Shown: positions 3,456 to 27,218 of the stretch, piece after piece
Layout: each line of letters begins with the position of its first letter
How positions within the stretch are numbered: the stretch's first letter is position 1
Origin: Sulfuricurvum sp.
GTDB lineage: Bacteria; Campylobacterota; Campylobacteria; Campylobacterales; Sulfurimonadaceae
Length of the DNA: 37,108 nucleotides
Reading direction: 5' to 3'
Assembly (NCBI RefSeq): GCF_019163035.1
Contig: NZ_JAFLKV010000069.1
Coordinates: 1 to 37,108, forward strand
Made by a program: the position numbers and the translations under genes
The notes under the pieces: generated by a model
What the model was told of the DNA's origin: nothing
The model's database searches: none
The model's input: only the letters and a program-made list of their open reading frames with translations

Positions 3456-4973
3456 ATGGCTGACCCGAATGTACTAAAACAGCTTCGGGCTAATCTGCAC
3501 TCTTATTCTCTTTTGTATGTCGAGGATAATACGGGGCTGAACGCTCAGGCAAGCACTCTTTTTAAAAAATTCTTTGATAATGTTGTCTCCGCGTATGACG
3601 GTGAAGAGGGGTTGAGCCTTTTTAAACTTCATCGTCCTCAAATCGTTATCACCGATATCAATATGCCTAAAATGGATGGACTGAAAATGTCCGAAGCGAT
3701 ACATGCTATTGATTCGGATGTCATAATTATCATTACGACCGCCCATGATGAAATCGAAATGCTCCACCATTCGATTAAAATCGGAGTCTTTGAATATCTC
3801 ATCAAACCACTTAAGATCGATAATCTCATCGAAACATTTACGCGATGTTCTGAAGTATTTTTGGAGGCGTTTCATCGCAAAATTTTTAATGCCAATCTGC
3901 ACGCTGTTTTTAACTATCAAAACAATCTGGTTTTTTTACTCCATGAACGTAATGTGGTGATTGCCAATCAGCCCTGTCTTGATTTTTTCGGTGTCCCCAA
4001 CATCGAGGCATTGCGAAAGAAATTTCAATCGTTCGGTGAGGTTCTACTCGAACATAAAAGTTTTGTTTACGACCACGGGACGATGAAATGGTTTGAGCAT
4101 ATTTCTGCACATCCTGGACGGCTGTTTAATGTCAAAATTGCCGATCAGGAGGAGGTGTCGCACCATTTTATCCTCACGTTTCAGAGTGTTCCTGAAAAAG
4201 AGGGGTATGCTGTCCTTTCCCTCAATGATGTCACTGAATTGGGGCTGCTCAAACTCTATGACAGTACTGCAACCGAGAAAGAAGCCATTCTCAAAGATGA
4301 AAAAACGGTACGTGCACTTCTGGAGATGGGAATGCGCAGTGGTGCCAAGATCAAAGCACACAATCTTTACAAAGGGTTAAGTATCGCGAACGATGGGCTT
4401 GTGGTAACTATCGATGAGAGAGTCGTCACCATGAAGGTTCCGTACGTTCAGCTCAAAGCGATGCAGCATGAGGAGATGTTTTACCTCACTTCAGAACTTT
4501 TCCCCATGGCAATTTTGGCGGAGGGGATCAAACGGATTGATTTTGAGGATCAAAGTGTTACTTTTGAACATTACCACTTGGTTTCAACTTCACCGACTCG
4601 TAGAGAATCGATACGGGTCACGCCTGATGATAAGATTCAGATGAGTATGCTGTATGAAGAGCGGAAGTTAGATACTGAACTCGAGATTATGGATGTTTCA
4701 CTGGGGGGAATGAGGGTTCAGGTTTTATCTTTGCCGGCAGGATTTGCCGTAAAACATTCGGTTATTTTGGATATTGTACTTACCACTATGCTTCGTCCGA
4801 TCATTATTAATACGACGGCAGAGGTGTTTCGGATCGATGAGGTGAATCGACGTTTCGAGGTGGTTTTTATTTTTACACTTCATGCAGAAGGGAAGAAAAG
4901 TATGATCGATTATATCGCCAAACGTCAAATGGTTTTAATCCGCGAATTTAAAGGAATACAGTATGAAAAATGA
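3456..4973 (+). CDS. Response regulator with PAS-like and PilZ (c-di-GMP binding) domains
   Basis: First gene of a three-gene operon, with the strong site AAAGGAG before the ATG. Residues 15-130 are a receiver with E23-D24, phospho-acceptor D67, T94 and K117. About 140-260 resemble a PAS fold. About 285-372 resemble the YcgR-type domain that often precedes PilZ. The C-terminus is PilZ with both c-di-GMP binding motifs intact: RxxxR at 383-387 (RESIR) and DxSxxG at 413-418 (DVSLGG). The protein could therefore combine a phosphorylation signal with c-di-GMP binding, perhaps acting on motility. Its end overlaps the next gene by 11 bases. The receiver is of the same LYVED type as others in the window. 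Confidence 0.88.
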   Translation: MADPNVLKQLRANLHSYSLLYVEDNTGLNAQASTLFKKFFDNVVSAYDGEEGLSLFKLHRPQIVITDINMPKMDGLKMSEAIHAIDSDVIIIITTAHDEIEMLHHSIKIGVFEYLIKPLKIDNLIETFTRCSEVFLEAFHRKIFNANLHAVFNYQNNLVFLLHERNVVIANQPCLDFFGVPNIEALRKKFQSFGEVLLEHKSFVYDHGTMKWFEHISAHPGRLFNVKIADQEEVSHHFILTFQSVPEKEGYAVLSLNDVTELGLLKLYDSTATEKEAILKDEKTVRALLEMGMRSGAKIKAHNLYKGLSIANDGLVVTIDERVVTMKVPYVQLKAMQHEEMFYLTSELFPMAILAEGIKRIDFEDQSVTFEHYHLVSTSPTRRESIRVTPDDKIQMSMLYEERKLDTELEIMDVSLGGMRVQVLSLPAGFAVKHSVILDIVLTTMLRPIIINTTAEVFRIDEVNRRFEVVFIFTLHAEGKKSMIDYIAKRQMVLIREFKGIQYEK

Positions 4974-5733
4974 AACGGTTCTTTTTGACGATACACACCA
5001 TAAATGTGTTATGTTTAGTCTAGAAGATGAGGAACACGCAGCGCACTCACTGTCGGTGAACCAATTTTTGATTATTCAAAATAACAGCGCTGTTTTGATC
5101 GATCCTGGAAGTGAAGTGATATTCAGCGATTTGTATGAAGCAATTTCACGCCATATTGATCCGAAACAGCTGAAATACATCTTTTTTTCTCATCAAGATC
5201 CCGATGTCGCCGGTGCGATTGCTCAGTGGAGCGTTGCCACTTCAGCAAAGCTTGTTATATCGCAGTTGTGGGTTAGATTTATGGGGCATTATGGTCTTAT
5301 GGATATGGACCGTATTTTGGGGCTTGAAGATCATGGCGCTCAAATCACTTTCGGAAGTGATTATTTGCGGTTTATCCCTGCCCATTTTCTCCATTCTCCG
5401 GGAAATTTTTCTCTTTATGATAGCCGCTCGAAAATTCTCTTTTCGGGGGATATTGGAGCGGCGATCGCTTCTCCTCAAAATCTCAATAAAAGAGTTGATG
5501 ATTTTGAGGAACATCGGCCATTTTTAGAAGGGTTTCATAGTCGTTATATGGCATCTAACCGTTTTTGCCGTGCATGGGTTCAGTGTGTTCGTCGTTACGA
5601 TGTCGCTACGATTGCCCCTCAGCACGGGTCCCTCTTTCACGGTGAAAATGCAACACGCTTTTTAGAGTGGTTTGAAAATGTTGAGGGTGGAGCGGAACAT
5701 TGCGATACCCTTTACGGGTGTGAAAAAACGTGA
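4963..5733 (+). CDS. ODP-like diiron metallo-beta-lactamase-fold protein, probable O2/iron sensor
   Basis: A 256-residue metallo-beta-lactamase-fold protein resembling the diiron half of flavodiiron proteins but without a flavodoxin domain. Likely metal ligands are H77, D79 and D81 (SHQDPD), H144 (LHSPGNF), D163 (FSGDIGAA) and H221 (PQHGSLF). The second ligand is Asp where flavodiiron reductases have Glu. Stand-alone proteins of this type (ODP) are described in Treponema denticola as oxygen and iron sensors feeding chemotaxis. Lacking a flavin domain, it is more likely a sensor than an O2 reductase. It is translationally coupled on both sides, to a receiver-PilZ protein and a histidine kinase, which supports a sensing role. 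That role is inference. Confidence 0.8.
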   Translation: MKNETVLFDDTHHKCVMFSLEDEEHAAHSLSVNQFLIIQNNSAVLIDPGSEVIFSDLYEAISRHIDPKQLKYIFFSHQDPDVAGAIAQWSVATSAKLVISQLWVRFMGHYGLMDMDRILGLEDHGAQITFGSDYLRFIPAHFLHSPGNFSLYDSRSKILFSGDIGAAIASPQNLNKRVDDFEEHRPFLEGFHSRYMASNRFCRAWVQCVRRYDVATIAPQHGSLFHGENATRFLEWFENVEGGAEHCDTLYGCEKT

Positions 5734-7682
5734 AGATTGATTCATCATCACTCTTTATCTCGTGGCTTCGTGAAAATGAAACGTGGTTGATGGAGCGGAT
5801 ACTCACCTATGCCAAAACAAATGGATACACTCTTTATACTTCGACCCTTTTGGAAGCGTGGCGAATCTCAATAGTCGGTTTGACCGATTCGCTTGAGCTT
5901 TTGATTACACAATACCCCACCCCACCATCTCTCACCCCTGATGAACATTTCAACGACGATCCAGCTTCGCAATTTGGATTGCTCGAAGCGCAGCGCCATC
6001 GAAGTCGAGGGGTTAATTTCGCGATGTTTATTTCATTGTTTAAATATTATCGGCAAACCTATCATGACTTGATTGAAGAGAACAAAGAGATTTTCGAAAA
6101 TCCGCAGTTTTATTATGAGTATATTCGGCAGTTTTTTGATCGGGTAGAGATTGCCTATTCTATCGAATGGCACGGACGAAGTTCGGAAGAACAAATACAT
6201 GAACTCTCTTCTCAAAATCTTGATCTTACGAATGAAAAAAATCTCTATTTGACCATTTTTGATTCGTTCTCATCAGGGGCAATTTTGCTTGATTCTTACG
6301 GTTTGATCACCAACTACAACCAAAGTGCGAGTGAAGTGTTATTTGATAAAAGACAATCCAGCGGTCACTACTACTACATGAAAAATAAAACGATACCAAC
6401 TCCTGAATGGATTTTTGATGCAATCGGTGATTTGGGAGATAGGGAGAGTTATCGTTTTACGTATGAAAAAAAAGAGAGTGATGGGACACGGAGAATTTAC
6501 GATGTCTCGATTCGTCCATTAGATGATGTCAGTGAGAAATTTTCGGGTTATGTAATGATCTTAAATGATATTACGGCACTCGAAAGTGCTCGTGAACGGT
6601 TTGATTTGGCGATTAATGGCTCACGTGATGGGCTATGGGACTGGAATCTTATTACTAATGAAATTTATTTTTCACCCCGTTGGAAAATGATGCTCGGTTA
6701 CAGTGATGAAGAGCTTCCCAATGCGCTGGAGACATGGAGTTCACTTGTTCATCCCGATGATTTAGAAGCTGCAGAGCGGGCGATTGAAATGAGTATAACG
6801 TCTCAAGGGGTTCCTTATGAAAATATCCATCGTTTACGGCATAAAGAGGGGCATTATATTTGGAATTTGGATCGGGGGCAAGTAATTTTTGATGAGGAGA
6901 ACAAAGCGGTTCGGATGGTTGGATTTCACACGGATATTACTCAGCGTCAGCGTATGCTCGAAGAGATACGTACTACTCAAGAACTAATGATAGCCCAATC
7001 TCGTCATGCGGCAATGGGAGAGATGATTGGGATGATCGCCCATCAATGGCGTCAGCCGCTGAGTACGATGTCGATGGTTATCAATAACATGCTCGTCGAT
7101 CTTGATCTCGATGGGATTGATCCCGAACAGTGTCAAAAAAGCGGTGAAGAGATTTTGGCGATGAGCGACTATCTCTCTAAGACAATTGATGTATTCCGTA
7201 ATTTTTTCCGTCCTGATAAAGAGAAAGAGCCGAGTTTTATCATTGATATTTTGGGTGAAGCCGAATCTATGATCGGTTCGAGTATGCTCAATCATAATAT
7301 TGTTTTGGAGATGGCTAATGAGTCGAAGGGATCAGTATGCATCTATTCTCGTGAAATGCTACAGGTATTGATCAATATTTTAAATAATGCCAAAGAAGCA
7401 TTGGTATCGAGTCCACTTCTTAATAAGAGGATAAATGTTCGTGTATACGATGAAGATGAGTATGTCGTGGCACAACTGTGTAATAATGGCGGAAATATCC
7501 CAGTAGAGGTGATGTCCCATATTTTTGACCCCTATTTTTCGACCAAAGATGAAAAAACGGGGACTGGATTAGGACTTTATATGTCAAAAACAATTATCGA
7601 AAAGCATCTGAATGGAATTATCAGTGTTGAGAATACTGGAGATGGAGTGTGTTTCACGATACGATTACTCAGGGAAAAATAG
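5730..7682 (+). CDS. Sensor histidine kinase, RsbRD-like N-terminus plus two PAS domains
   Basis: Soluble 650-residue kinase with a GTG start that overlaps the TGA of the ODP-like gene (GTGA). Residues 1-150 are helical and resemble the RsbRD N-terminal globin-like domain (NFAMFISLFKYYRQTYHDL). Two PAS domains follow at about 172-285 and 288-410. The dimerisation box has H438 in IAHQWRQPLS, and the ATPase domain has the N box NNAKEAL (about 552-558), the F box FDPYFSTKDE and the G box GTGLGLYMSK. No membrane segment is visible. The natural partners are the upstream ODP-like protein as input and the receiver-PilZ protein as output. The catalytic half is close to that of the kinase at 17547-18683. 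Confidence 0.92.
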   Translation: MKIDSSSLFISWLRENETWLMERILTYAKTNGYTLYTSTLLEAWRISIVGLTDSLELLITQYPTPPSLTPDEHFNDDPASQFGLLEAQRHRSRGVNFAMFISLFKYYRQTYHDLIEENKEIFENPQFYYEYIRQFFDRVEIAYSIEWHGRSSEEQIHELSSQNLDLTNEKNLYLTIFDSFSSGAILLDSYGLITNYNQSASEVLFDKRQSSGHYYYMKNKTIPTPEWIFDAIGDLGDRESYRFTYEKKESDGTRRIYDVSIRPLDDVSEKFSGYVMILNDITALESARERFDLAINGSRDGLWDWNLITNEIYFSPRWKMMLGYSDEELPNALETWSSLVHPDDLEAAERAIEMSITSQGVPYENIHRLRHKEGHYIWNLDRGQVIFDEENKAVRMVGFHTDITQRQRMLEEIRTTQELMIAQSRHAAMGEMIGMIAHQWRQPLSTMSMVINNMLVDLDLDGIDPEQCQKSGEEILAMSDYLSKTIDVFRNFFRPDKEKEPSFIIDILGEAESMIGSSMLNHNIVLEMANESKGSVCIYSREMLQVLINILNNAKEALVSSPLLNKRINVRVYDEDEYVVAQLCNNGGNIPVEVMSHIFDPYFSTKDEKTGTGLGLYMSKTIIEKHLNGIISVENTGDGVCFTIRLLREK

Positions 7683-7760: not shown

Positions 7761-8249
7761 ATGGCTGGAATAGAACTTACGTTCGATGACAAAGAGTTTA
7801 TCGTTTCTAAAACTGATTTGGCAGGAAAAATTATTTATGGTAATGAATTATTTATCCAAATGTCCGGATATCTCGAATCAGAGCTTCTCGGCAAGCCTCA
7901 TAATATTTTGCGACATCCTGAGATGCCTGCCTCTATTTTTAAATTTTTGTGGGACAAAATCAAAAATAAAGAAGAAGTTTTTGCTTATGTTCTTAATAAA
8001 ACAAAAGATGACAACTATTACTGGGTCATGGCACATGTAACTGCAAGTATGAATGATAAAAATGAGCTGATCGCCTATCACTCTGTTCGTCGCAAACCTT
8101 CCCAAAAAAAATTAGAGTTGATCAAACCAATTTATCGTTCATTGCTTGAAGCGGAGAGACGCGGAGGTATTCATGCCGGGACAGAAGCGTTAACACATTT
8201 TTTAAATCAGAAAAAGGTCTCTTATGAAGAATTTATCCTCTCTCTCTAA
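7761..8249 (+). CDS. PAS-domain energy-taxis protein, CetB/Aer-like
   Basis: A 162-residue soluble protein with one Aer-type PAS domain at about 8-115. The marker stretch [16 protein letters not shown] is typical of FAD-binding PAS domains of Aer and of Campylobacter CetB. A helical tail of about 45 residues follows. Its 3' end overlaps the next gene, a membrane chemoreceptor, by 26 bases. This PAS-then-MCP pairing matches the split CetB/CetA receptor, where the PAS protein senses redox state through FAD and signals through the membrane partner. FAD binding is inferred from family similarity. Expression probably starts at site A. Confidence 0.85.
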
Positions 8250-9663
8250 GCTGCAGTATCTTAATCTTATTTCGATTTTTGTGTTTATGGTAGCGCTGAT
8301 TTTTGAAGTAATTACGATCGGATTTGATTGGATTCGGGTTTTGAATTTAGTTAATTTTGCTATTGCTTGGGCTATATTTGTCAATATTCGTAAAGTTCAA
8401 GCAACTATTCACAATGTAGCTGAAACCATGAAAGAGATTGAGCTTGGGCATATGGAATCTCGGATTACTAATATCGCCGAGAACGGTGAATTGCGTGCAT
8501 TGTGTTGGAATACGAATAACATGATTGATCAGCTCGAAGTCTATATGCGTGATACCTATGCGGTTATTGAGGCATTGAGTCAAGACCGTTATTATCGTAC
8601 GGTTCAAGACTCTGGACTCAAAGGGACGTTTAAACGTTCAGCCGAGTATATTAATCAAAATGTCGTCAAAATGAGAGCAAGTCATGAAGCCCTTAAACTT
8701 TCTGAACTCGATCAAAAACTTGCCGAAATCAGTCGTTCTACCGGAGGATTGGATGTTATCCAAAATGATTTGGTAATCACACTTGGAAATTTGTCGAATA
8801 TTGCATCAATCTCTCAAAATACCGCCGCTCAGTCCTCTACAACAGTTAATGAGATCGGAGAAGTGAGTCAAAACCTCTCTTCTTTGAGTGAACTGGTTGT
8901 CGATTCCAATGGAGCCATCAATGCTCTTAGCGCTCGTGCAAACGATATTAATTCAGTGGTCAATCTGATCAAAGATATTGCCGATCAGACCAATCTTTTG
9001 GCATTGAATGCAGCGATTGAAGCGGCACGTGCCGGTGAACAAGGACGGGGGTTTGCCGTGGTTGCCGATGAAGTTAGAAAACTTGCGGAGAAAACTCAAA
9101 GTGCCACAGGTGAGATATCAATCGCGATTCAAACTCTTCAACAAGAGACAACTTCGATTCAGTCGGGGTCTGAATCGATCAATGAGATAGCGTTGCGCTC
9201 AAGTGCGATGATTCAAAAATTTGATAAAACTATCCATTTGTTTAACACGGATGCTCTAAAAACCGCTTCTGTTGTCCGAAATATTGAATCGACCGCTTTT
9301 GTTATTTTGGCAAAAATCGATCATATGCTCTTTAAAGGGACAGCGTATAATGCTGTATACACCCGAAATGATCAACAACATTTTTCAGATCATCATGATT
9401 GCCGTTTGGGAGCATGGTATGAAAAAGGAGACGGAAAAAAATATTTCAGTTCTCTTTCATCATTTCAAGGGATGTTGCAACCGCATCAGAAAGTGCATGA
9501 TACAATAGGCGTTATCGGTAATACGATTAAAGATATCTCTCGTTTGAGTGAAAATCGTGATCTCCTTATTCAACAATTCGGTACATTGGAAAACTCATCA
9601 GATACGTTGTTCAAGCAAATGGATTTGATGTTGAATGAGGCGGCAGCAAAAGAGGTCGGCTAA
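8224..9663 (+). CDS. CetA-like membrane chemoreceptor with HAMP-like region and CZB domain
   Basis: Chemoreceptor of 479 residues with no periplasmic sensor. Two membrane segments lie close together (about 12-33 and 38-56), forming a hairpin with almost no external loop. A HAMP-like region covers about 57-108 and the signalling tip is near 250-290 ([21 protein letters not shown]). The C-terminus is a CZB zinc-binding domain with H367, C393 in CRLGAWY, and H421/H425. The architecture fits CetA, the membrane partner of a PAS protein, here with an added metal-binding module. The start ATG at 8224 follows AAAGGTCTCTT inside the end of the cetB-like gene. The signalling region is very similar to the other two MCPs in the window. 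Confidence 0.9.
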
Positions 9664-11161: not shown

Positions 11162-12286
11162 CTATGAATATATAAATTTTAACTGACTCGCATCATTTCT
11201 CGGAAGAGTGATCGTAAATATCGTCTCATCTTTCACTACCCCAAGTGTAAGACTCCCTTTGAACTCTTGCGTGATTATGAGTCGTGCGATGTGCAGACCG
11301 ATCCCAAACCCTTCTCCATGACCTTTTGTCGAAAAATGGGGCTCAAATATTTTTTCACGTATCGCTTCTGGAACCCCGCCGGCATTATCTTTTACTATTA
11401 AGATGATTGTCTTTTCGGTTATTTGAGTTTCGACGGTGATGATTTTAGGGTAGTCGAGTGCAATATTTAAAAAAGCATCTTTGGCATTGGCGAGTAGATT
11501 GACCAATACCTCTTCTAAATCAGAAGAATAGCCATGCAAAAAGGTATCCTCACCAAGAGGATGGATACGATATTCGATCCGTTCACGTTGGAATTGATCG
11601 GCAAAAAAAAGTTGAACTCGTTCCAGCATGGTATTGATTGAAAACGGCTCTTTAGCGCGGTTTGTTTTCCCCATATTTAGAACATTTTTAAGAATTTCCG
11701 CCATTCTTTGGGATTGCTCCGAGATCATCTGGGTACTTTTTTGAATCGAAACTGAGGGGACGGATTCCTCCAATGTCGATTGGATGGAGAGATTGATTGC
11801 TTCCATACTGATGAGATTGATCGGTTGACGCCATTGGTGGGCGACGACATTGAGTGAATCCACTATCCCTGAACGGTGAGATCGGAGTTTAAGTGCCTCC
11901 ATATAGCGTAGTGTATCGACCTGTTCGCGGAGCATGGGAAGAATGCTGTTAGAGAGCGCTTCTGATTCTTCAATCGCTGATAGGGGTGGAAACAATACAC
12001 ACTGCATGAGTAAAGCCGCTGAGCGGACGAGTCTGTGATCAGCGTTTTCGCTTACTACTATTAGTACGATCTTTTTTCCGATATTATGGAGCGTTTCAAA
12101 TGCCTCTAAATGGTGTTTTTTAAACGTTTTGGTCTCTAAAATAACCCCTATGAGCATTTCATTATTCAGTAATAGTGGATCATAAGGGGCAGATTTGAGT
12201 AAAAAATAATCTTTTAGATTTTGGTTTGGAGAAAATAGAGGTGTTTCATCATAGAGATGAAGGACAATAGGGAGGGTGTTATTCAT
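11162..12286 (-). CDS. Histidine kinase with receiver-like pseudo-domain
   Basis: A 374-residue soluble kinase. Residues 1-115 have an alternating strand/helix pattern like a receiver, but I cannot find a clear acidic pocket or phospho-aspartate, so it looks like a degenerate receiver. The phospho-acceptor is H150 in VVAHQWRQPIN. The ATPase domain has LLANAKDAF (N box), DNAGGVP (G1), FEPHFSTKG (F box) and GFGIGLHIA (G2). The start ATG is preceded by GAGGT and overlaps the upstream gene by 8 bases. It is the last clear kinase of the operon starting at 15788 and probably exchanges phosphoryl groups with the receivers encoded beside it. Confidence 0.88.
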   Translation of the reverse strand: MNNTLPIVLHLYDETPLFSPNQNLKDYFLLKSAPYDPLLLNNEMLIGVILETKTFKKHHLEAFETLHNIGKKIVLIVVSENADHRLVRSAALLMQCVLFPPLSAIEESEALSNSILPMLREQVDTLRYMEALKLRSHRSGIVDSLNVVAHQWRQPINLISMEAINLSIQSTLEESVPSVSIQKSTQMISEQSQRMAEILKNVLNMGKTNRAKEPFSINTMLERVQLFFADQFQRERIEYRIHPLGEDTFLHGYSSDLEEVLVNLLANAKDAFLNIALDYPKIITVETQITEKTIILIVKDNAGGVPEAIREKIFEPHFSTKGHGEGFGIGLHIARLIITQEFKGSLTLGVVKDETIFTITLPRNDASQLKFIYS

Positions 12287-13931
12287 GGGCTACCTCAAAT
12301 GTATTTCCGGCAAGAGATCCGCAGAAGGCATCACAATTCGTATCTTTAATTAATTCGAGTTGTTTCTCATCACTTACACCCTGAGCAATACATTTTGCTC
12401 CAATATGATGAGTAATTTCTACCAGTTTTGAGAGGATAAAACAGATCTGCGGATTATCAGTTTTAGCGATAAGCTCCGGATGAAATTTAATAAAATCGGG
12501 GCGCAATGAGAGGAGAGTCAACAGGTTAAATTGACCGATTCCAAACTCACTGATCATAATTTTAAAACCATTGGCTTGAAGTTCTTTAATATGAAGTAGA
12601 GTGGTATTTTGAAATATTTTGTCTCCATCAACAATATGAAAACAGATATCGGAAGATCTAATTGCATTCCGTTGAGCCCAAAATTGAATATAGGAAAGAA
12701 GCGATTCATCGTTGAGCTCCATCGTACTTAGTGCTAAAAAAATAGGCTTGCGTGGAACCAAAGTAGGGATTAGCTCAAACGCATGTCGTATGATAGAGCG
12801 GGTTATCATCCCCATCTGCCCCATATCAAGGGCAATGGATCGAAATGTTTCTGAACCGTAAAGATGATCACTGTTACGGATTTTGACGACACTTTCATAA
12901 CCGAAAATATCCCGATTGTGAGTATCGCGTATCGGTGCGAAAAAGGGGACAATGTTCTCTTCATGGAGGGCATCGAAAATCATTCGAAGGATCTCACGGC
13001 TTTTGAGGAGAGCGGAAGTTTCATCTTGATCGCTTAGGCTATAAACACTGTATCCTCCCCCTATATGATCCGATACTTTCTCAAGAGAGAGTTTAGAATG
13101 GAGTAACAGGTGCTCTTTTCCATAGGCGATACCCACAGAGAGGGTGGAGTTTAATACAATCCCTTTTTCAGAGGTATGAAAGTATCGGGCAACGGAAATC
13201 ATGCTTACAGCCATTTTGCTTGCAAATTCAATTACATTTCCCTCTAAAACAAGACAAAATTCATCGGTAGCAATGCGGTAAAATTCCCCTTTACTCTCTG
13301 CTGAGATACTTTGTAGCAAGGCGGAGAGTTCGACAATGTATTCATTCGCAAAGACATCTCCGACGAATTTGAAAATATTGTTTAGATGATTGACTCGGAT
13401 TCGAAGGAGGGTGAACGGAGGAGATTCCAATGTTTGAATACGATTGGCAAGTTCTTGAAAACTTTTCCATCCGGTGATGGGATCATTATCAAAAGTGGTG
13501 TGTGGAATGTTGTGTAAAGGTGCTGAAAAAATCTTTTCCAAACTTTCAAACAGTTTTGGCATTGAGAGGGGTTTGATAAGATACCCCTCAACATCTAACC
13601 GGATAGCTTCCGCCATGTATTCAGCTTCATCGTGGGCGGATAAAATTAAAATACGTTGATAAGCGCTTTGTGCTCGGATTTGTTTGATAAGGCGCAAACC
13701 TCCCATTTTTGGAAGCTCCAAGTCGGTGATTACTAAGGTGAATGGGTTGTTTTTTTCAGTACGTGATCGAAAAAGCTCATACGCCTCTTCACCATCAGAA
13801 GCGATAATGCACTCTTTAAAAAAGACGTTTAAAATTCGTCCCAGAGATTCGGCAAGTTCAGGATCGTCGTCTATAATCAAGACACTGCGTGATTCTGATC
13901 CCTCTTTGAGCCGCTGAATTTCGTTAGACAT
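12279..13931 (-). CDS. Receiver protein with degenerate GGDEF and degenerate EAL domains
   Basis: A 550-residue response regulator. The receiver (about 15-130) is intact: D21-D23, phospho-acceptor D70, S98, K120. The GGDEF domain (about 150-300) carries ATDEF at 221-225 in place of GG(D/E)EF. The EAL domain (about 315-545) has lost key residues: ESV for EAL at 346-348, SE for the catalytic DD at 461-462 (ISEFGIGQFN), and AQG for AEG near 516-518. Both enzymatic activities are probably lost, so it may bind nucleotide or proteins as a phosphorylation-controlled scaffold. It overlaps both neighbouring genes by 8 bases. Confidence 0.85.
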   Translation of the reverse strand: MSNEIQRLKEGSESRSVLIIDDDPELAESLGRILNVFFKECIIASDGEEAYELFRSRTEKNNPFTLVITDLELPKMGGLRLIKQIRAQSAYQRILILSAHDEAEYMAEAIRLDVEGYLIKPLSMPKLFESLEKIFSAPLHNIPHTTFDNDPITGWKSFQELANRIQTLESPPFTLLRIRVNHLNNIFKFVGDVFANEYIVELSALLQSISAESKGEFYRIATDEFCLVLEGNVIEFASKMAVSMISVARYFHTSEKGIVLNSTLSVGIAYGKEHLLLHSKLSLEKVSDHIGGGYSVYSLSDQDETSALLKSREILRMIFDALHEENIVPFFAPIRDTHNRDIFGYESVVKIRNSDHLYGSETFRSIALDMGQMGMITRSIIRHAFELIPTLVPRKPIFLALSTMELNDESLLSYIQFWAQRNAIRSSDICFHIVDGDKIFQNTTLLHIKELQANGFKIMISEFGIGQFNLLTLLSLRPDFIKFHPELIAKTDNPQICFILSKLVEITHHIGAKCIAQGVSDEKQLELIKDTNCDAFCGSLAGNTFEVAHE

Positions 13932-14604
13932 GGTCTAACTTTTTCATAATGTAGCCAAATCCTCGAATATTTTCGATCAGCTCTTCTTTGAGTTTGCTTC
14001 GTACCCGATTGACCAATGAGCGTATTGTTGAGGGTTCTGCCTCTTCACCATCCCATATGAATGAACGGATGCTCTCATCGGTCATGATTTGCCCAAGATT
14101 ACTTACAAACATGGTGATTAATGAGAGTTCTCGTTTAGTGAATCTCTGAATGGTCCCGTCATAAAAAAGAAAGTTATTCTCTTTGTTAAACGTATAATGT
14201 TCACTGAGTTGAATAATAGGATCGTATTGGGGTTTTACGGCATGTTGAATCTGACTTGTGAGATGGGAAATCCGTATATCGAGCTCTTTGAGATTGAACG
14301 GTTTTTTGAGATAGTCGCTACACCCGAAGGAAAAAGCATCGGAGATGTATTCAACGTCATGGTAGGCACTGATAATAATTGTAGGGGTATCGGGATATTT
14401 TTCGCTTATTACTTTTAAGCACTCTAAACCTCCTACAAGGGGGGTATTGATATCAAGAATATAAAAATCGTGCGATTGGGTAGTAATGAGATCGAGTACC
14501 TCTTGACCGTTATCGTAATGGTCTACAAAGTGACCACGAGATAGGAGATAGGTGCGGATAGAGCGTGCGAGCATGAACTCATCTTCAAGAAGTAAAATTT
14601 TCAC
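13924..14604 (-). CDS. OmpR/PhoB-family response regulator
   Basis: A 226-residue transcription factor with a receiver at 1-118 (E7-D8, phospho-acceptor D51, S79, K101) and a winged-helix DNA-binding domain at about 130-222. The latter shows RFTKRELSLITMF, SIRSFIWDG, the recognition-helix region TIRSLVNRVRSKL and the wing IRGFGYIM. The start is GTG, overlapping the upstream TGA (GTGA), with GGAG upstream. It is the only clear DNA-binding protein in this window. OmpR/PhoB proteins typically bind direct repeats with an 11-bp period, which is the arrangement of sites A-D here, so it is the first candidate for controlling them (inference). The likely partner kinase is the overlapping gene at 14601-15788. 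Confidence 0.92.
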   Translation of the reverse strand: MKILLLEDEFMLARSIRTYLLSRGHFVDHYDNGQEVLDLITTQSHDFYILDINTPLVGGLECLKVISEKYPDTPTIIISAYHDVEYISDAFSFGCSDYLKKPFNLKELDIRISHLTSQIQHAVKPQYDPIIQLSEHYTFNKENNFLFYDGTIQRFTKRELSLITMFVSNLGQIMTDESIRSFIWDGEEAEPSTIRSLVNRVRSKLKEELIENIRGFGYIMKKLDHV

Positions 14605-15788
14605 TCATTCACTCCGTTTTGTATTAGTAATGGCATTGTAGATGAGTTGTGTTGCAAGAGCGTCGCATTTTTAAAAATATAGCGAAAAGCGGTCCCTCTA
14701 ACTGCTGTAGACGAGAGTTCGATCTCAATATTTTCCTCTTTGCAGATTTGAGCAACGATGCTCAACCCCAGCCCATATCCCCCTTTATGTTCCGATTCGC
14801 GGTAAAAGCGCTGAAAGATCTTCTTTTTATCTTGAATGAGGGGTCCGTGATTACGAACTTCGAAAAATAAATCTCCTTTTCGTATCCCTACCGTCACATT
14901 GATTTCGCTCGGACGGTAAGAATATTTGATAGCGTTGGATAGGGTATTGTCTACAAGACGAGAGAGTTTAAGTACATTAAAATGGATTAATGGAAGATTT
15001 GGCTGGCCGACCCGAATTGACATAGAGAGTTCATTTACTTCGGCTATACAAGTGAAATAACGGACGCGTTCATGGATAAACTCAACCATATCAAGGGTGG
15101 TAAGGTAATCGGGTACGCGGTCACGTTTCATTAGATAGGTCATATCTTCATAGCTGTTTTGAATGATTCTCGATCCTGCTTCGATCGCATTTAAATATTC
15201 GTTATCTATCCCATCTATCCGTAAAAGATCGATATTGGTGATGATGACGGAGAGGGGGGTATGGATTTCGTGAATTGCATTTTTTAAAAATTGATCTTGT
15301 TCTTCGAGGAGTTTCAGGGCATATTCTTTGGAATCTTCGAGAAGTTTTTGGGAAGCTTCCAGCTCGAGGTCATAGTTAATCCGTTGTAAAAGGGTGGTAA
15401 GGGCATTGAATAGCTCCCTTTGATCAATCGGTTTAAGGACGAAACGATCAACTCCATAGCGGATCGATTCGATAAAAATATCTCGATCTTCCGTTCCAGA
15501 TATGGCAATGACTTTTTGATTAGCGTCATACTGTTTGAGTAGGCGAATTAAATCGATCCCATTTTCTTGCCCCAAATGGATATCGCTGATGATGATAAAG
15601 GGGAATGGCATGGATTGCATTCGGGTATAGTTTTCGAGTGCTTCACCAAAGGTAGATGCGGTAAAAATATGGGTAAAAAAATGGGAGAGGAGACGTTCTA
15701 AACTTTCTAAAACATTGAGATCATCTTCGACAATGAGGAGATTTTTCTCATATGAGAGCTTTTTTAATTCGGTTATAGCATTGCTCAT
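14601..15788 (-). CDS. Hybrid protein: N-terminal receiver plus histidine kinase
   Basis: A 395-residue soluble protein. The receiver (about 12-130) has E21-D22-D23, phospho-acceptor D69, S97 and K119. A coiled linker leads to a HisKA domain with H173 in AIHEIHTPL, a different class of H box from the HQWRQP kinases in this window. The ATPase domain shows NTLSNAIKYSY (N box), VRNHGP (G1), FQRFYRES (F box) and GGYGLGLSIV (G2). A receiver placed before the kinase is unlike the usual C-terminal hybrid and suggests that a phosphorylated receiver controls the kinase. It overlaps the OmpR-type regulator by 4 bases and probably phosphorylates it. Confidence 0.9.
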   Translation of the reverse strand: MSNAITELKKLSYEKNLLIVEDDLNVLESLERLLSHFFTHIFTASTFGEALENYTRMQSMPFPFIIISDIHLGQENGIDLIRLLKQYDANQKVIAISGTEDRDIFIESIRYGVDRFVLKPIDQRELFNALTTLLQRINYDLELEASQKLLEDSKEYALKLLEEQDQFLKNAIHEIHTPLSVIITNIDLLRIDGIDNEYLNAIEAGSRIIQNSYEDMTYLMKRDRVPDYLTTLDMVEFIHERVRYFTCIAEVNELSMSIRVGQPNLPLIHFNVLKLSRLVDNTLSNAIKYSYRPSEINVTVGIRKGDLFFEVRNHGPLIQDKKKIFQRFYRESEHKGGYGLGLSIVAQICKEENIEIELSSTAVRGTAFRYIFKNATLLQHNSSTMPLLIQNGVNE

Positions 15789-15807
15789 GGTATTCTCTTT
15801 CTCTTAG

Positions 15808-15831
15808 AGTTAAGATTATTATAGCTTAACT
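15808..15831 (-). promoter_or_regulatory. Palindrome containing a -10-like TATAAT
   Basis: On the minus strand AGTTAAG, a 10-base loop and CTTAACT form a perfect 7-bp inverted repeat in the 44-base gap between two genes. The loop contains TATAAT (15823-15818). It could be an operator over a promoter for the kinase/regulator operon starting at 15788, or a weak internal terminator after the EAL gene. It does not match sites A-D. Confidence 0.35.
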
Positions 15832-15832
15832 T

Positions 15833-17557
15833 TTAGAGGGATTGGATAAAACGCATGGAGGGATTGTAGGGAATCGCGGCTCCAAACAGATACCCTTGCG
15901 ATTCGCTGACCCCCATTGATACGATCATCGATTCAACCGACCTGTTTCCGACAAATTCGGCAACGGTTTTTAGGTTCAGTTTTTTGGCAAATGATGTCAC
16001 CATTTCGACAATGGTTTGAGAAACAAAATCTTTATCGATATTGATGATCAGGGAACCGTCTATTTTGATGTAATCGATATTTAATTTCGCCAGATGGTCA
16101 AAGTTTGAGTATCCTGACCCGAAATCATCGATTGCAATTTTACATCCGTATGATTTAAGGCGGCTGAAAAAATCACCCAGTTCATCGTATGAATCAATTC
16201 CTTCTGATTCAAGTAACTCAAAAACCAATCGTTCAGGCTGAGGGAACGCTTCGATTTGCTTAAAGAGAAAATCTTTAGTCTGTGGATGTTTAATGTCATC
16301 AATGGAGAGGTTCATACTGATGAAACATTCGGAATTTTCAAAATCTTTCATCGCTTTTTGGATAATCATTCGGCTGATTTGAGGGTAGGTTTTAGTCTCT
16401 TTTGAGATAGGTAAAAAGTTTATTGGTGTTATTACCTCACCATCGGGGAGGATTAGACGTGCCAAAGCCTCGTATTTAATGATTTTACCCGTAGCATTAT
16501 CGATAATGGGCTGATAGTAGGGGTAAAAACGCCCCTCTTTGAGTCCCCGTTTGATGTCGTCTTTGCATTTTAGTTTATTAGAATGTAATTTTTCTTTATC
16601 CTCGTCATGGGAATAGACGATCACTTTACCTGTGTGTTGGGCTTCTCGGAGTGCTTTATCGCCATTTGAGAGAGAAATACCGTCTTTTCGATCGACGATT
16701 CCTATTGTCATTTCGAGATACATCAGTTCCGTATCTACACGGATTTCACGCTCTTCGAACATATGAATCGTTAAACGGGCAAACCGTTCGAGATCATAGC
16801 TATCCATAGGGGAAAGGAGGGCAAAGTGGGTTCCGCTGATACGGTAGAGATTTGCATCGTTGAGACCGGAAGTCATTTCACGTAAAAAATCGGCACATTG
16901 GCAAAGGATAGAATTCCCTACTTCGTAACCGTAAAAGTCGTTCAAACTTTTAAAATCGTTAATTTTAAACAAAACAAGTGAGAGATCTGAAGTGCTCAGG
17001 ATGTCATGCTCGAATTGTCCCAAGGTATAGAGTTTCGTAATACGATCCACTCTATACGTATGAAGCAGTTCATTATTTTTTGTTTCTATAAGCTGTTCAA
17101 GGTGGTGTTTATAATCACTGTTCTCTTTTTTTTGATTGATTTGATAGACAATTTTGATGAGTTGTTTGAGGGTTTGCAACGGATTGATGGGCTTAAACAG
17201 ATAACCATCAACCCCCAACTCGACACTGCGATGAAGCATAGTGGACTCTTGATGAGAAGATATCATCAGTACTGCTTGATCAAGAATGTGCTCTTTGATT
17301 TGTTCAATCATCTCCAAACCGTTGAGTTTAGGCATTTCAATATCGCTGATAATAAGATCATAATGGCGATTTAATGCTTTTTTTAGCCCTTCTTCACCAT
17401 TGGTTGCGGTATCAACTGTCGAAAAAAAACGCTCCAAAAAGAGGGTAAACTCCTCTCGTATCATGAATATATCTTCGACATAAAGGATAGAGATATCTTT
17501 TCCTATCGAAATGAGGGTTTCACGTAATGTTTCGAACGTATCATGTTTAGTAAACAT
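15833..17557 (-). CDS. Response regulator with degenerate GGDEF and intact EAL phosphodiesterase domain
   Basis: A 574-residue c-di-GMP enzyme under receiver control. The receiver (about 20-135) has E28-D29, phospho-acceptor D72 and K122. The GGDEF domain (about 165-320) has SGTHF at 241-245, so cyclase activity is unlikely. The EAL domain (about 335-570) keeps its catalytic set: EAL at 363-365, N416, the glutamates in FELLESE, DD at 477-478 (IDDFGSGYSN), K498, E534 and Q554. It should hydrolyse c-di-GMP to pGpG. The track begins at 17620; I chose ATG 17557, which has AAAAGGGG upstream. It overlaps the kinase gene at 17547 by 11 bases and is the obvious partner of that kinase. Confidence 0.9.
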   Translation of the reverse strand: MFTKHDTFETLRETLISIGKDISILYVEDIFMIREEFTLFLERFFSTVDTATNGEEGLKKALNRHYDLIISDIEMPKLNGLEMIEQIKEHILDQAVLMISSHQESTMLHRSVELGVDGYLFKPINPLQTLKQLIKIVYQINQKKENSDYKHHLEQLIETKNNELLHTYRVDRITKLYTLGQFEHDILSTSDLSLVLFKINDFKSLNDFYGYEVGNSILCQCADFLREMTSGLNDANLYRISGTHFALLSPMDSYDLERFARLTIHMFEEREIRVDTELMYLEMTIGIVDRKDGISLSNGDKALREAQHTGKVIVYSHDEDKEKLHSNKLKCKDDIKRGLKEGRFYPYYQPIIDNATGKIIKYEALARLILPDGEVITPINFLPISKETKTYPQISRMIIQKAMKDFENSECFISMNLSIDDIKHPQTKDFLFKQIEAFPQPERLVFELLESEGIDSYDELGDFFSRLKSYGCKIAIDDFGSGYSNFDHLAKLNIDYIKIDGSLIINIDKDFVSQTIVEMVTSFAKKLNLKTVAEFVGNRSVESMIVSMGVSESQGYLFGAAIPYNPSMRFIQSL

Positions 17558-18683
17558 CACACCCCTTTTGATCGATTGATTTAGGGATGGTAATACTAAA
17601 GGTAGAATTACCATTGTCACTGGAGACGGAAATAGCGCCCTTTAAATGCTTTTCGACGATAATAGCAGACATATAAAGCCCCAATCCTGTTCCGTTTTTT
17701 TCACTTTTAGTACTAAAATAAGGTTCAAATATATGGGTGAGTATTTCAGGTCGGATCCCTCCGGCATTGTCACTAACGAGAAACTGAAGGGAACTTGGGT
17801 GTTCAATGAGCTCAAATCGGATCAGGGGAGAGGGGATCGTATGTTCCATAAATGCATCTTTGGCATTGTTAAGCAGGTTTAAGAAAAGTTGCAAAAGCTC
17901 ATTTTTATAGGTGACACAATGGATATCGCTTTTCCCTTCAAATTGTAGTGTTAGACGATTGTTTTCGAAATTTTTACCGATGATGCTGATGAGTTCACTT
18001 TTGATTTCACCAAAAGTAATTGCTTGAGGAAGTTTATTGGGGCGGAAAAAATTTCTAAAATCGTCGATGGTGTGTGAGAGGAAATGGACCTGTTTATCTA
18101 TCGATTCGAGATCTTTGATGAGGCGATCTTGCTTGAGTCCTCCCATTTGGATATCGATGAGGACATTATTGGTTAGCATCCCGATAACGGTAATGGGCTG
18201 ACGCCATTGATGGGCGATCATTCCAATCATCTCTCCCATAATCGCCAGACGTGATTGAGAAATCATTAGTTGTTCGGTTACTTCATTTTTACTTTTTTCG
18301 AGGCTGATCTGAAGTGTTAAACTCCGAAGATTTTCAACATTTAGACACGAATCGATTGCGTTAGAGAGTTTTGTTTTGAATTTTGAGAGCATTAGCCCAG
18401 CGCTTTCCACTCCTATCTCGTGATCGAATAAAAAAAGAAAATTTCCCTGTGCAACCGGCAGTTGAAGAATATTTTCGGTGTAGGTATCTTTATGATCAAA
18501 CGATTCTCCAAAATGAACGAGAGGGGTGAGAGGTGAAGTAGTTTCGAAATATTCTCCTCCCCGTGCACCGCTGCATCGGACGAAGGTGGTGATCACTTCG
18601 GTGATCATGTCAATAAGGTTCAATGAATTTCCGATGGCATTGAGGCATTCGTATTCGGTAAAATGATCATACATCTTTTTCAT
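17547..18683 (-). CDS. GAF-like sensor histidine kinase
   Basis: A 378-residue soluble kinase. Residues 10-120 look GAF-like (LIDMITEVITTFVRCSGARGGEYF). H158 lies in MIAHQWRQPIT. The ATPase domain has NLLNNAKDAF, SDNAGGI, FEPYFSTKSEKNGTGLGLYMS. The track start at 18743 is a TTG codon within promoter site D and lacks a good ribosome binding site, so I moved the start to ATG 18683. That ATG lies only 6 bases after the predicted -10, so the transcript may be leaderless; ATG 18674 is an alternative. Its catalytic half resembles the kinase at 5730-7682 (both have FRNFFRP). It probably phosphorylates the overlapping receiver-EAL protein. Confidence 0.88.
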   Translation of the reverse strand: MKKMYDHFTEYECLNAIGNSLNLIDMITEVITTFVRCSGARGGEYFETTSPLTPLVHFGESFDHKDTYTENILQLPVAQGNFLFLFDHEIGVESAGLMLSKFKTKLSNAIDSCLNVENLRSLTLQISLEKSKNEVTEQLMISQSRLAIMGEMIGMIAHQWRQPITVIGMLTNNVLIDIQMGGLKQDRLIKDLESIDKQVHFLSHTIDDFRNFFRPNKLPQAITFGEIKSELISIIGKNFENNRLTLQFEGKSDIHCVTYKNELLQLFLNLLNNAKDAFMEHTIPSPLIRFELIEHPSSLQFLVSDNAGGIRPEILTHIFEPYFSTKSEKNGTGLGLYMSAIIVEKHLKGAISVSSDNGNSTFSITIPKSIDQKGCDVY

Positions 18684-18689
18684 AGTCAC

Positions 18690-18723
18690 ACTATAATCTT
18701 TTAAAGTTGCAAGTATGTCGCAA
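18690..18723 (-). promoter_or_regulatory. Direct-repeat promoter, site D (before GAF-like kinase)
   Basis: Minus strand: TTGCGAC (18723-18717), ATAC, TTGCAAC (18712-18706), exactly 10 bp (TTTAAAAGAT), then TATAGT (18695-18690). The spacing is identical to sites A, B and C. Only GTGACT separates the -10 from the ATG at 18683. Further TTGC/GTGC half-sites lie just upstream. Confidence 0.7.
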
Positions 18724-18752
18724 TACTTGCACTCAGTATGCAAATACTATTT

Positions 18753-18845
18753 TTATCGAAATGCTTTTGGTCGTGTTACGTAAAGCAGCAGGCTCATAAA
18801 CCCTATAAGGGGCAGTATGAGTAGAAACGTGTTAGAGTCGTCCAT
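18753..18845 (-). CDS. Small single-pass membrane protein, 30 residues
   Basis: An ORF too short for the track, starting with ATG one base after the TAA of the POTRA gene (TAAGATG). The product has a short acidic N-terminus (MDDSNTF), one hydrophobic segment (LLILPLIGFMSLLLYV) and a basic tail (TRPKAFR). This is a convincing small inner-membrane protein with an N-out, C-in charge pattern. AGGGTAAG upstream may serve as ribosome binding site. It is translationally coupled to the POTRA protein and may anchor or modulate it. No family is recognised. Confidence 0.6.
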   Translation of the reverse strand: MDDSNTFLLILPLIGFMSLLLYVTRPKAFR

Positions 18846-18846
18846 C

Positions 18847-19452
18847 TTAGTTCTTACCCTGATAGGCATAGAGGGCTTTAAAATTAGGGTGTTTTTTAAT
18901 CTCAATAGTAACTATCCCTTGTTCATCCACCTTTTTTACCTGAGCATAAGCAAGCTCATATCGGTGCTCACGGTAATAGTTTTCAACTTCCTTAACGATT
19001 TCATCGAGATGGGTCTGATCGTTTGTTTTTCCGAGTGAAGGTTCTATGAGTTTCATAAGGCGGTAGGTAGATATTTTTTCATTGCCGACAAAAAAGATTT
19101 GATTAATAGACCCTTTTTCGATGGTTCGGCGTTTCATTTCCCCAATTGAGCGTTCATTAAAATCAGCGTATTTTCCGACAACAATTTTGAATATACCCTT
19201 GCTCTCATCTTGCGGCTGAACCTGTGCGTAGGCGAGTGTATAGTTGTGTTTTCGGTAATATGCTTCGGTGTCTTGGATAATGGCATTGAGCTCATTTTGA
19301 TCGGCGATTTTCCCGATATGGTTCTGAATGTTTTTTTGCAAGAATTTAGTAGGAACTTTGAGATTCCCCTCGATGTTGATCGTTTGGATCGGACTCGATG
19401 CCAAAAGAGTTGAGGTAAAAGCGATAGAGGTAAGCACAATTTTTGAGATCAT
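18847..19452 (-). CDS. Periplasmic protein made of two POTRA-like repeats, without beta-barrel
   Basis: A 201-residue exported protein: a signal peptide at 1-19 (hydrophobic core then LLAS), followed by two similar modules at about 21-95 and 115-192. Each has the POTRA pattern of strand, two helices and two strands, seen as INIEGN and IFFVGN starts and the repeated YYRKHNYTLAYAQV / YYREHRYELAYAQV. The closest known domains are those of ShlB/FhaC-type two-partner secretion transporters, but here the barrel is entirely absent. POTRA domains bind unfolded chains or partner proteins, so a periplasmic adaptor is likely. The gene has its own direct-repeat promoter (site B) and is coupled to a 30-residue membrane protein. 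Confidence 0.78.
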   Translation of the reverse strand: MISKIVLTSIAFTSTLLASSPIQTINIEGNLKVPTKFLQKNIQNHIGKIADQNELNAIIQDTEAYYRKHNYTLAYAQVQPQDESKGIFKIVVGKYADFNERSIGEMKRRTIEKGSINQIFFVGNEKISTYRLMKLIEPSLGKTNDQTHLDEIVKEVENYYREHRYELAYAQVKKVDEQGIVTIEIKKHPNFKALYAYQGKN

Positions 19453-19482
19453 GGTATTCCTTGACGATGGATGTTTCGTGAA

Positions 19483-19516
19483 AGTTTAATCTCTTAGTGT
19501 GGCAAGTATGTTGCAA
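19483..19516 (-). promoter_or_regulatory. Direct-repeat promoter, site B (before POTRA gene)
   Basis: Minus strand: TTGCAAC (19516-19510), ATAC, TTGCCAC (19505-19499), exactly 10 bp (ACTAAGAGAT), then TAAACT (19488-19483) as a weaker -10. The gene start is at 19452, preceded by AAGGA. Spacing matches sites A, C and D. Confidence 0.72.
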
Positions 19517-19543
19517 TTTTGCGTTTAGGAGAAGTTTATGTGG

Positions 19544-20101
19544 TTAAAATAACTCAGTAAAATCTTTGTACCGCATTTTGTCGAAAAAGCGGATTACTTT
19601 TCGGAGATTCTCTTTTTCTTTTGTGTCATTCGAGGAGAGATGGATATTGTTATAGTGCTCAGTGAGTCTAGTACGGAGCATTAAAAAATCATTTTGTGAT
19701 ACATGTTTGCCATGATTAGCTTTATGAATAGCATTATAAATTTTATTTTGAGCATCTACATTAAAGGGTTGAGACGAGTTTAGAATGATTGCGTTACATA
19801 GCTCGATTGTTTTACCCTCAAAGGTTTCATCGGCAGTTTTGGAGGCTTGATGTTCTGTAGATAAAGGTGGTTCGATTTTTTTTGCTGTCTGGGTATAAAT
19901 AAAACTGTATTGCTTGCTTAGATTGTATTGATGTATCAGTAAATCCATCGCTTGGAAAAGATTGATGCGATAGAGGGGAATCGCATTATGTCTGAGAATG
20001 ATAACTTTACCGTTTTCAGAATATTGCCATCCGATTATAGGAGCTCCTTTCGAGATTGCATGGTCGATGATAGTGGTTAATAGTTCTTCTTTATCGGTCA
20101 T
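19544..20101 (-). CDS. Hypothetical protein, 185 residues
   Basis: Starts with ATG directly after the TAA of the receiver-helical gene (TAAATG), so it is clearly the third gene of the propeller operon. The product is soluble with no signal peptide or membrane segment. The first 70 residues look mixed alpha/beta (IIGWQYSENGKVIILRHNAIPLYRINLFQAMDLL). A polar linker follows, then a helical C-terminal half rich in charged and aromatic residues (VIRFFDKMRYKDF). I recognise no family and no catalytic motif. Being co-translated with a receiver protein, it may be that protein's partner. Confidence 0.75.
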   Translation of the reverse strand: MTDKEELLTTIIDHAISKGAPIIGWQYSENGKVIILRHNAIPLYRINLFQAMDLLIHQYNLSKQYSFIYTQTAKKIEPPLSTEHQASKTADETFEGKTIELCNAIILNSSQPFNVDAQNKIYNAIHKANHGKHVSQNDFLMLRTRLTEHYNNIHLSSNDTKEKENLRKVIRFFDKMRYKDFTELF

Positions 20102-21118
20102 TTAATTTTCAATAGACATTTCAATTTCAGTAATCTTTTTGATCAGGTAGTCATCCATAAAATGGACGTTATCAACATTGTGATAAACAAAAATACCGCG
20201 CCGCCATTGCTCTAAATAATCAAATAAAGCAGTAATGAGTGGAATAAGATACTCAATTGTATCGATATTTTCTGTTTTAATCCCATCGATTCGCCTAGAC
20301 ATCTGCATTAGGGCATATCCCAGTTCATGACATTGAGGGATGAGATGAATTTCATGAGCGTATGCTCTAAGGAGTTGATTGAACGACAGAATGAGATTTT
20401 CGGTGGTCTTTCGATCCGAACTGACCAATAGAAGGTTAAAATCATCTTCAATTTGTTCCAGATCTTCATTCGTGCGGTTTAATTCTAGTGTATCGTTGAG
20501 GGTATAAAACTCCTCCAAACTTGGTCCACACATAGGGATTATAGGCACAAATATATCAGTAATAAGTTCTCCCTTGCACTCTTCTCGTAATCGTCCCAGT
20601 TGATTGAGAGTCGATTCGAGTTCTATATTGCTTGCACGTAGTTCCGAATTAGTTCGTTCCAGCAATGTATTGAAATAGTGAACCATTTCACGATCATAGA
20701 TCGCTTGAGCTGATTTGAGGAGTGTCTCTACGACGCGATTTATTTCGACAGGTTTGAGGATAAAACCGTCCACACCGATATTGATAAGCTCGATCAGTTT
20801 TTCACTTTCGGAATAGGCTGAAACAACAATAACGGGCTGGGAAGCATTAAGGATTCGAATGGCGGAGGTAAGTTGCATCCCCCCCATTTGTGGCATAGTC
20901 AGATCGGTAATGATCAAATCATACGAGTTATTTTTATAGAGATCTAATGCTTCTATTCCGTTGTTAGCGGTATCGACTCTTCCGAAAAAGCGTAAAAAAA
21001 ATGATTTCAACTGTTGTTGAATCTCCAAATCATCTTCGACGTACAATACACTCAACGTAAATCCGATCTCTTTGAGTTGTTTTACGTTAGTGTGGGTCAT
21101 AAATGCTTCAGTATTCAT
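20102..21118 (-). CDS. Response regulator with helical C-terminal domain of unknown function
   Basis: A 338-residue protein. The receiver (about 18-135) is complete: E28-D29-D30, phospho-acceptor D72, S100, K122. A coiled coil (about 140-185) leads to a helical domain of about 150 residues (FNLLLVSSDRKTTENLILSFNQLLRAYAHEI and the tail LEQWRRGIFVYHNVDNVHF) that I cannot assign; it has no GGDEF, EAL, PilZ or DNA-binding signature. ATG 21118 is preceded by GAGGATACAG, so I prefer it to the track start at 21130. It overlaps the propeller gene by 11 bases. The receiver is of the same LYVED...FF type as those at 3456 and 15833. Confidence 0.82.
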   Translation of the reverse strand: MNTEAFMTHTNVKQLKEIGFTLSVLYVEDDLEIQQQLKSFFLRFFGRVDTANNGIEALDLYKNNSYDLIITDLTMPQMGGMQLTSAIRILNASQPVIVVSAYSESEKLIELINIGVDGFILKPVEINRVVETLLKSAQAIYDREMVHYFNTLLERTNSELRASNIELESTLNQLGRLREECKGELITDIFVPIIPMCGPSLEEFYTLNDTLELNRTNEDLEQIEDDFNLLLVSSDRKTTENLILSFNQLLRAYAHEIHLIPQCHELGYALMQMSRRIDGIKTENIDTIEYLIPLITALFDYLEQWRRGIFVYHNVDNVHFMDDYLIKKITEIEMSIEN

Positions 21119-26819: not shown

Positions 26820-27200
26820 ATGGAGCACACACTCAACGATACCGATTTTTTGGTATCGCAAACTGACTCAAAAGGGAAGATCCTTTTTGCCAATGAAGAT
26901 TTTTGCAAGATTGCCGGTTACACTCTCGAAGAGTTGATTGGACAGCCGCACAACATTGTTCGTCATCCCGATATGCCAAAAGCAGCGTTCAAAGATTTAT
27001 GGGACACCGTAAAAAGTGGAAAAGTATGGAAAGGGTACGTCAAAAACGCTACTAAAAATGGTGGTTTTTATTGGGTATTCGCCACTGTCTATCCAAATAT
27101 CGCTTGTGGTGATGGTGAGGGCGGCTATATGTCATGTCGTCGTAAAGCCTCATCGGCTGAGATCCAAAAAGCAGAAACGCTTTATAAAACAATGCGATAA
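26820..27200 (+). CDS. PAS-domain energy-taxis protein, second CetB/Aer-like copy
   Basis: A 126-residue protein consisting almost only of an Aer-type PAS domain, with the marker ELIGQPHNIVRHPDMP and the terminal strand region GGYMSCRRK. It is similar to the protein at 7761-8249 but lacks that protein's C-terminal tail. FAD binding is expected from the family. It lies 18 bases before a membrane chemoreceptor, giving a second split PAS/MCP pair. GAGGGAAAATAG precedes the ATG. Unlike the first pair, no direct-repeat promoter is seen upstream. Confidence 0.85.
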   Translation: MEHTLNDTDFLVSQTDSKGKILFANEDFCKIAGYTLEELIGQPHNIVRHPDMPKAAFKDLWDTVKSGKVWKGYVKNATKNGGFYWVFATVYPNIACGDGEGGYMSCRRKASSAEIQKAETLYKTMR

Positions 27201-27218
27201 GTAAGGGTAGTAGAAGGT

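Follow-up and report, generated by a model that had tools for sequence, protein, structure and literature searches.

The window analysed here is a stretch of 37,108 nucleotides from Sulfuricurvum sp. (contig NZ_JAFLKV010000069.1), which belongs to a draft genome of 2.05 Mb in 155 contigs that is 88% complete. It holds three overlapping genes on the plus strand, which encode in this order a response regulator with receiver (REC), PAS and PilZ domains, an oxygen-binding diiron protein (ODP) and a PAS histidine kinase (Table 1). A preliminary description of this DNA had reported the trio with overlaps of 11 and 4 bases and had proposed that the products are made together. All three open reading frames and both overlaps are present, and the overlaps support joint production. 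No intrinsic terminator was found between positions 3300 and 7800. Genes were called here by simple ORF finding, and many of the genomes surveyed below are drafts.

Table 1. Features of the regulator, ODP and kinase genes (positions are those of the window).
Feature	Position	Strand	Basis and remarks
REC-PAS-(YcgR-N-like)-PilZ response regulator, 505 aa	3456..4973	+	Pfam, motifs, AF2, Foldseek; core partner of ODP
Receiver domain, residues 20-127, phospho-acceptor D67	3513..3836	+	Pfam; D67 invariant in alignment
Putative PAS-like domain, residues about 140-262	3873..4241	+	Sequence pattern and predicted secondary structure; no Pfam match
YcgR-N-like and PilZ effector part, residues 282-488	4299..4919	+	Motifs, AF2, Foldseek
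ODP (oxygen-binding diiron protein family), 256 aa, MBL fold without flavodoxin domain	4963..5733	+	PF19583; PDB matches
ODP motif H77-Q78-D79-P80-D81	5191..5205	+	Conserved in 33-locus alignment; identical in 6qrq, 6qnm
ODP H141-F-L-H144, third-motif histidine	5383..5394	+	33-locus alignment; comparison with 6qrq, 6qnm
ODP D163, bridging-type aspartate position	5449..5451	+	Alignments; role by homology with metallo-beta-lactamase fold
ODP Q220-H221 (APQHG), last motif	5620..5625	+	33-locus alignment; comparison with 6qrq, 6qnm
PAS histidine kinase: helical N-terminal (1-150), PAS (173-284), PAS_3 (312-400), HisKA-like (429-496), HATPase_c (542-647)	5730..7682	+	Pfam; accessory, not conserved

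The middle gene, previously described as ODP-like, is a member of the ODP family: it scores 245.8 bits against PF19583 (cut-off 27.2), and its best relatives in the PDB are the two solved ODPs, 6qrq and 6qnm (E about 1e-72, identity 44-45%). Its HxDxD, H, D and QH ligand set is identical to both structures at every position compared, and in an alignment of 33 orthologues the ligand-type positions are at least 97% conserved. For motif 5, PMC7785958 notes glutamine as the unusual ODP ligand. Pfam finds a stand-alone metallo-beta-lactamase (MBL) domain and no other domain; the C-terminal flavodoxin domain of flavodiiron proteins is absent, homologues of flavodiiron size (about 413-438 aa) are separate genes, and HQDPDV stands in place of the MBL hydrolase motif HxHxDH. 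An identity as flavodiiron enzyme or hydrolase was rejected on these grounds. Judged from its sequence, the protein would be expected to bind O2 and iron.

In the upstream gene the receiver domain scores 79.7 bits with Pfam Response_reg and has a complete signature, with acidic pocket E23 and D24, phospho-accepting D67 and conserved K117. The Pfam PilZ model scores 19-21 bits (19.4-21.2), under the cut-off of 22.5, and we therefore name this domain PilZ-like from its motifs, RxxxR at 383-387 and DxSxxG at 413-418, and from its predicted fold. The AF2 model of the regulator has a mean pLDDT of 87.6, and Foldseek matches its C-terminal half to MrkH-c-di-GMP, MotI/DgrA, VCA0042 and PA4397 (3kyf), which places it in the YcgR/MrkH-type two-domain fold. 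D67 and K117 of the receiver and R383, R387 and S415 of the PilZ part are conserved across the regulator family; in the ODP-linked copies both arginines are kept in 31/32 and S415 in 32/32, with G, A or S at the last motif position. The earlier naming of this gene as a receiver-PilZ protein thus stands in spite of the Pfam score, and the PAS-like domain between the two parts is an addition to it. Motifs and model together predict that the PilZ half binds c-di-GMP. As this half is comparable to motility effectors (YcgR, MotI) and also to a transcription effector (MrkH), the output of the regulator could be flagellar or transcriptional.

Two PAS domains and a HATPase_c domain were detected by Pfam in the third gene. 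Its helical N-terminal domain (5730-6179) gave no match in Pfam and no identifiable structural match, the AF2 model of this part being of fair quality only (mean pLDDT 75) and the matches that Foldseek lists being PAS/LOV proteins; within the family sample, just six genomes were found to have the domain. When orthologues were sought in 60 relatives with the region from PAS to C terminus as query, those within the genus that were close appeared only in G025 (63% identity), G028 (52%) and G015 (55%, partial), and G028 has no group-1 ODP. Most Sulfuricurvum genomes with the regulator and ODP gave no match at E <= 1e-70, which indicates that the kinase is absent there rather than moved; its relocation was accordingly rejected for most members of the genus.

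Group-1 ODP orthologues (55-89% identical) were collected within the genus and across a phylum sample, and their neighbourhoods were inspected at 34 loci in Sulfuricurvum, Sulfurimonas and other Campylobacterota, which span several genera and families and share ancestry. At 31 of the 34 a REC-PAS-PilZ gene lies directly upstream of the ODP on the same strand; 25 of these pairs overlap by 4-32 bases, five have 0 to 13 bases between the two genes, and one (L040) has a truncated regulator. At the remaining three (L113, L123, L124) the regulator is found within about 3.5 kb of the ODP. A kinase follows the ODP at only 9/34, directly 3' in seven (the window, L038, L110, L115, L117, L118, L164) and one gene beyond in two (L044, L120), so that 25/34 have no kinase adjoining the ODP. 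A REC-HD-GYP-type gene lies downstream of the ODP in L034, L125, L044, L116, L117, L120 and L124, its domain order being scanned in L116 and the rest assigned by similarity. The closest relative (L032) has the order regulator, ODP, PAS, MCP and HD-GYP, without the kinase. Since the regulator adjoins the ODP at 31 loci and a kinase follows it at nine, we take REC-PAS-PilZ plus ODP as the conserved unit, with kinase and REC-HD-GYP optional. The trio had been proposed as one circuit in which the ODP feeds the kinase and the regulator, and conservation of its gene order had been named as a check: the pair is kept and the trio is not, so the kinase as fixed partner of the ODP was rejected on the locus survey and the orthologue search alike, and the partner that is conserved is the REC-PAS-PilZ protein. 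Identities of ODP and regulator between genomes correlate (r 0.91 overall, 0.85 outside the genus), to which shared descent contributes. Such conserved pairing shows a functional link, not physical contact. At L040 (7906-9676) the regulator is reduced to its PilZ-bearing part, which stands behind the N-terminal half of a different sensor protein and still directly precedes the ODP; this is either a deletion or an assembly join.

The co-occurrence of the two genes is asymmetric. Of 397 genomes of the phylum, 22 have a group-1 ODP, and each of these has the regulator; another 12 carry the regulator but lack the ODP. Fisher's test gives p 7e-28 for this co-occurrence, uncorrected for kinship, and the recurrence of the adjacent pair in different genera and families carries more weight. 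On the regulator tree the ODP label needs four changes, versus 11.5 in shuffles. Two close regulator orthologues (L067, L068) stand without ODP, and the regulator can dispense with the ODP, since at least two close relatives (G016, G023) keep the former and lack the latter. Remoter regulator copies without ODP in the genus mostly have a PAS kinase next downstream (L069-L074, L078, L079); next to the ODP-less regulators of Sulfurimonas such a kinase is less regular. On a simple reading, the ODP has been added to a regulator that is otherwise an ordinary two-component partner. In the close relative L068 (4743-7883) the ODP, the kinase and a short PAS gene are all missing, and the regulator adjoins MCP and HD-GYP genes.

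Elsewhere in the phylum ODP domains are joined to signalling outputs in several ways. ODP-GGDEF fusions occur at L056:5985-7634, L057:2775-4538, L058:5431-7065 and L059:6445-8220, and from their domain content each is possibly a diguanylate cyclase under direct O2/iron control; the fusions offer a simple enzyme read-out of the way in which the diiron state becomes a signal. ODP-kinase fusions are present in L052, L053 and L054, and further ones adjoin a response regulator gene in L104, L106 and L108. Group-2 ODPs adjoin stand-alone GGDEF genes in L047 and L049, and one in L102 lies between a REC-GGDEF gene and a kinase. From these fusions and neighbours we conclude that ODPs in Campylobacterota have been wired repeatedly to c-di-GMP or phosphorelay proteins. 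The survey of PilZ pairing covers Campylobacterota; a genome-contig search with a single-sequence query returned matches in Sulfuricurvum only, and the ODPs in a plasmid collection had no PilZ regulator annotated beside them. In an Acinetobacter plasmid record (L166:1590-5228) an ODP is flanked by genes for a TonB siderophore receptor and a YkgJ cysteine-cluster protein, a neighbourhood that hints at an iron link of ODP in an aerobe.

The account that we favour, and hold to be probable with considerable room for doubt, is a core of two genes in which the ODP is an O2/Fe(II) auxiliary sensor acting on the REC-PAS-PilZ regulator and the kinase is optional. The soluble diiron protein would serve the regulator encoded just upstream, and the latter would combine three inputs: phosphorylation of D67, the state of the ODP, and c-di-GMP at the YcgR/MotI-like PilZ half. 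The ODP state would probably be conveyed by direct contact, as the Treponema ODP is reported to do through conformation-dependent interaction with its cognate receptor (PMC6978683); by this analogy the REC-PAS-PilZ protein, being the conserved neighbour, is the likeliest contact partner. Phosphate would come from the third-gene PAS kinase in the window genome, and elsewhere from another kinase, or a REC-HD-GYP phosphodiesterase would join the operon. The integrated regulator would then alter its output, most likely flagellar motility or the switch between attached and free life. Contact, phosphotransfer and motility output are steps that we infer, and the last is plausible. The sub-threshold PilZ score and the relatives that keep the regulator without ODP count against this account, as does the draft genome of the window (88% complete), in which flagellins were found and FliG, present in nearly all relatives, was not.

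A broader form of this proposal makes the ODP of Campylobacterota the O2/iron arm of c-di-GMP signalling, which would gate the REC-PAS-YcgR/PilZ effector directly and without a dedicated kinase, and in relatives would gate diguanylate cyclases through fusions and operons; we put it forward tentatively, as a possibility that may well fail. The circuit of the preliminary description, read as an ODP-modulated two-component system in which O2 sensing by the ODP sets the PAS kinase and this kinase phosphorylates the regulator, seems unlikely. The overlap of the three genes speaks for it, as do the recurrence of the order regulator, ODP, kinase in L038, L110, L115, L117, L118 and L164 (the last with the same kinase N-terminal domain), the ODP-kinase fusions in the phylum and the PAS kinases beside ODP-less regulator paralogues. 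Against it, the ODP has no kinase next to it at 25 loci, most carriers of the pair in Sulfuricurvum have no close orthologue of the kinase, and G028 has a kinase relative (52%) yet no group-1 ODP.

Two further readings concern the ODP itself. That it is a redox enzyme or hydrolase (an O2/NO reductase or MBL hydrolase), protecting or tuning the pathway enzymatically instead of sensing, would suit an MBL fold related to flavodiiron proteins; given the missing flavodoxin domain, the altered hydrolase motif, an almost exclusive pairing with signalling genes and the fusions to GGDEF and kinase outputs, we regard it as very improbable. That it reports to a chemoreceptor array through the downstream PAS and MCP genes (7761-9663) has a precedent in Treponema, whose ODP senses oxygen and is coupled to an MCP (PMC7666581), and PAS and MCP-CZB genes do lie downstream, both in the window and in L032. 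Most orthologous loci have no such genes near the ODP but do have the PilZ regulator there, and this reading has the slimmest chance of all. Direct coupling of ODP and MCP genes as in Treponema is not seen in the window, where the neighbours are the REC-PAS-PilZ and kinase genes; downstream of the ODP the first MCP gene (8224-9663) comes third, an arrangement that is not conserved. The two-gene reading suggests that the ODP feeds c-di-GMP signalling rather than classical chemotaxis in these bacteria.

The ODPs of Treponema denticola and Thermotoga maritima (Muok et al., 2019; 6qnm, 6qrq) share the fold family, the ligand-type residues and 44-45% identity with the window protein, and are likewise encoded beside a signalling partner. 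That known partner is a chemoreceptor (MCP), and here it is REC-PAS-PilZ with an optional kinase or REC-HD-GYP, which bears out the earlier suggestion of a wiring different from the spirochaete pair. According to PMC7319448, Muok et al. (2019) reported ODPs drawn into various signalling pathways, both as operon neighbours and as fusions; this summary names no PilZ or c-di-GMP partner of the kind seen at the locus described here. The two-domain PilZ proteins YcgR, MotI (DgrA) and MrkH have the same predicted C-terminal fold and c-di-GMP motifs as our regulator, in which, unlike them, the PilZ half lies under a receiver and a PAS domain and is paired with a diiron protein. PixA of Myxococcus xanthus, a PilZ-receiver response regulator controlling motility (PMC8316039), is similar as a response regulator with a PilZ domain and differs by its opposite domain order and by having no PAS domain, neighbouring kinase gene or ODP. 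In the pertinent passages of PMC8846402, hemerythrin-GGDEF and hemerythrin-HD-GYP sensors deliver diiron O2/redox input to c-di-GMP, as proposed here, with an unrelated fold fused to the enzyme domain; the sensory-domain census in these passages lists heme PAS, protoglobin, hemerythrin, flavin PAS and disulfide for oxygen or redox, and ODP is not among them. Linkage of ODPs to signalling genes is therefore already published, and in the open-access literature searched we found no paper that reports the pairing of ODP with a PilZ regulator.

If the ODP gates c-di-GMP effectors or cyclases, it would represent, beside hemerythrin, a separate class of diiron oxygen input to c-di-GMP, and if it feeds a c-di-GMP effector, an oxygen sensor of chemotaxis type would have been rewired throughout the phylum to the switch between attached and free life. 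For Sulfuricurvum and Sulfurimonas, whose habitat is the oxygen-sulfide interface, the choice to swim or settle according to oxygen is central. The window holds two pairs of a short PAS protein gene and an MCP gene (7761-9663 and 26820-28325), the first of them downstream of the ODP block, which resemble bipartite energy-taxis receptors of the CetB/CetA type. On the minus strand, positions 11162-21130 are densely packed with receiver, GGDEF-EAL-like and kinase genes, several of which overlap.
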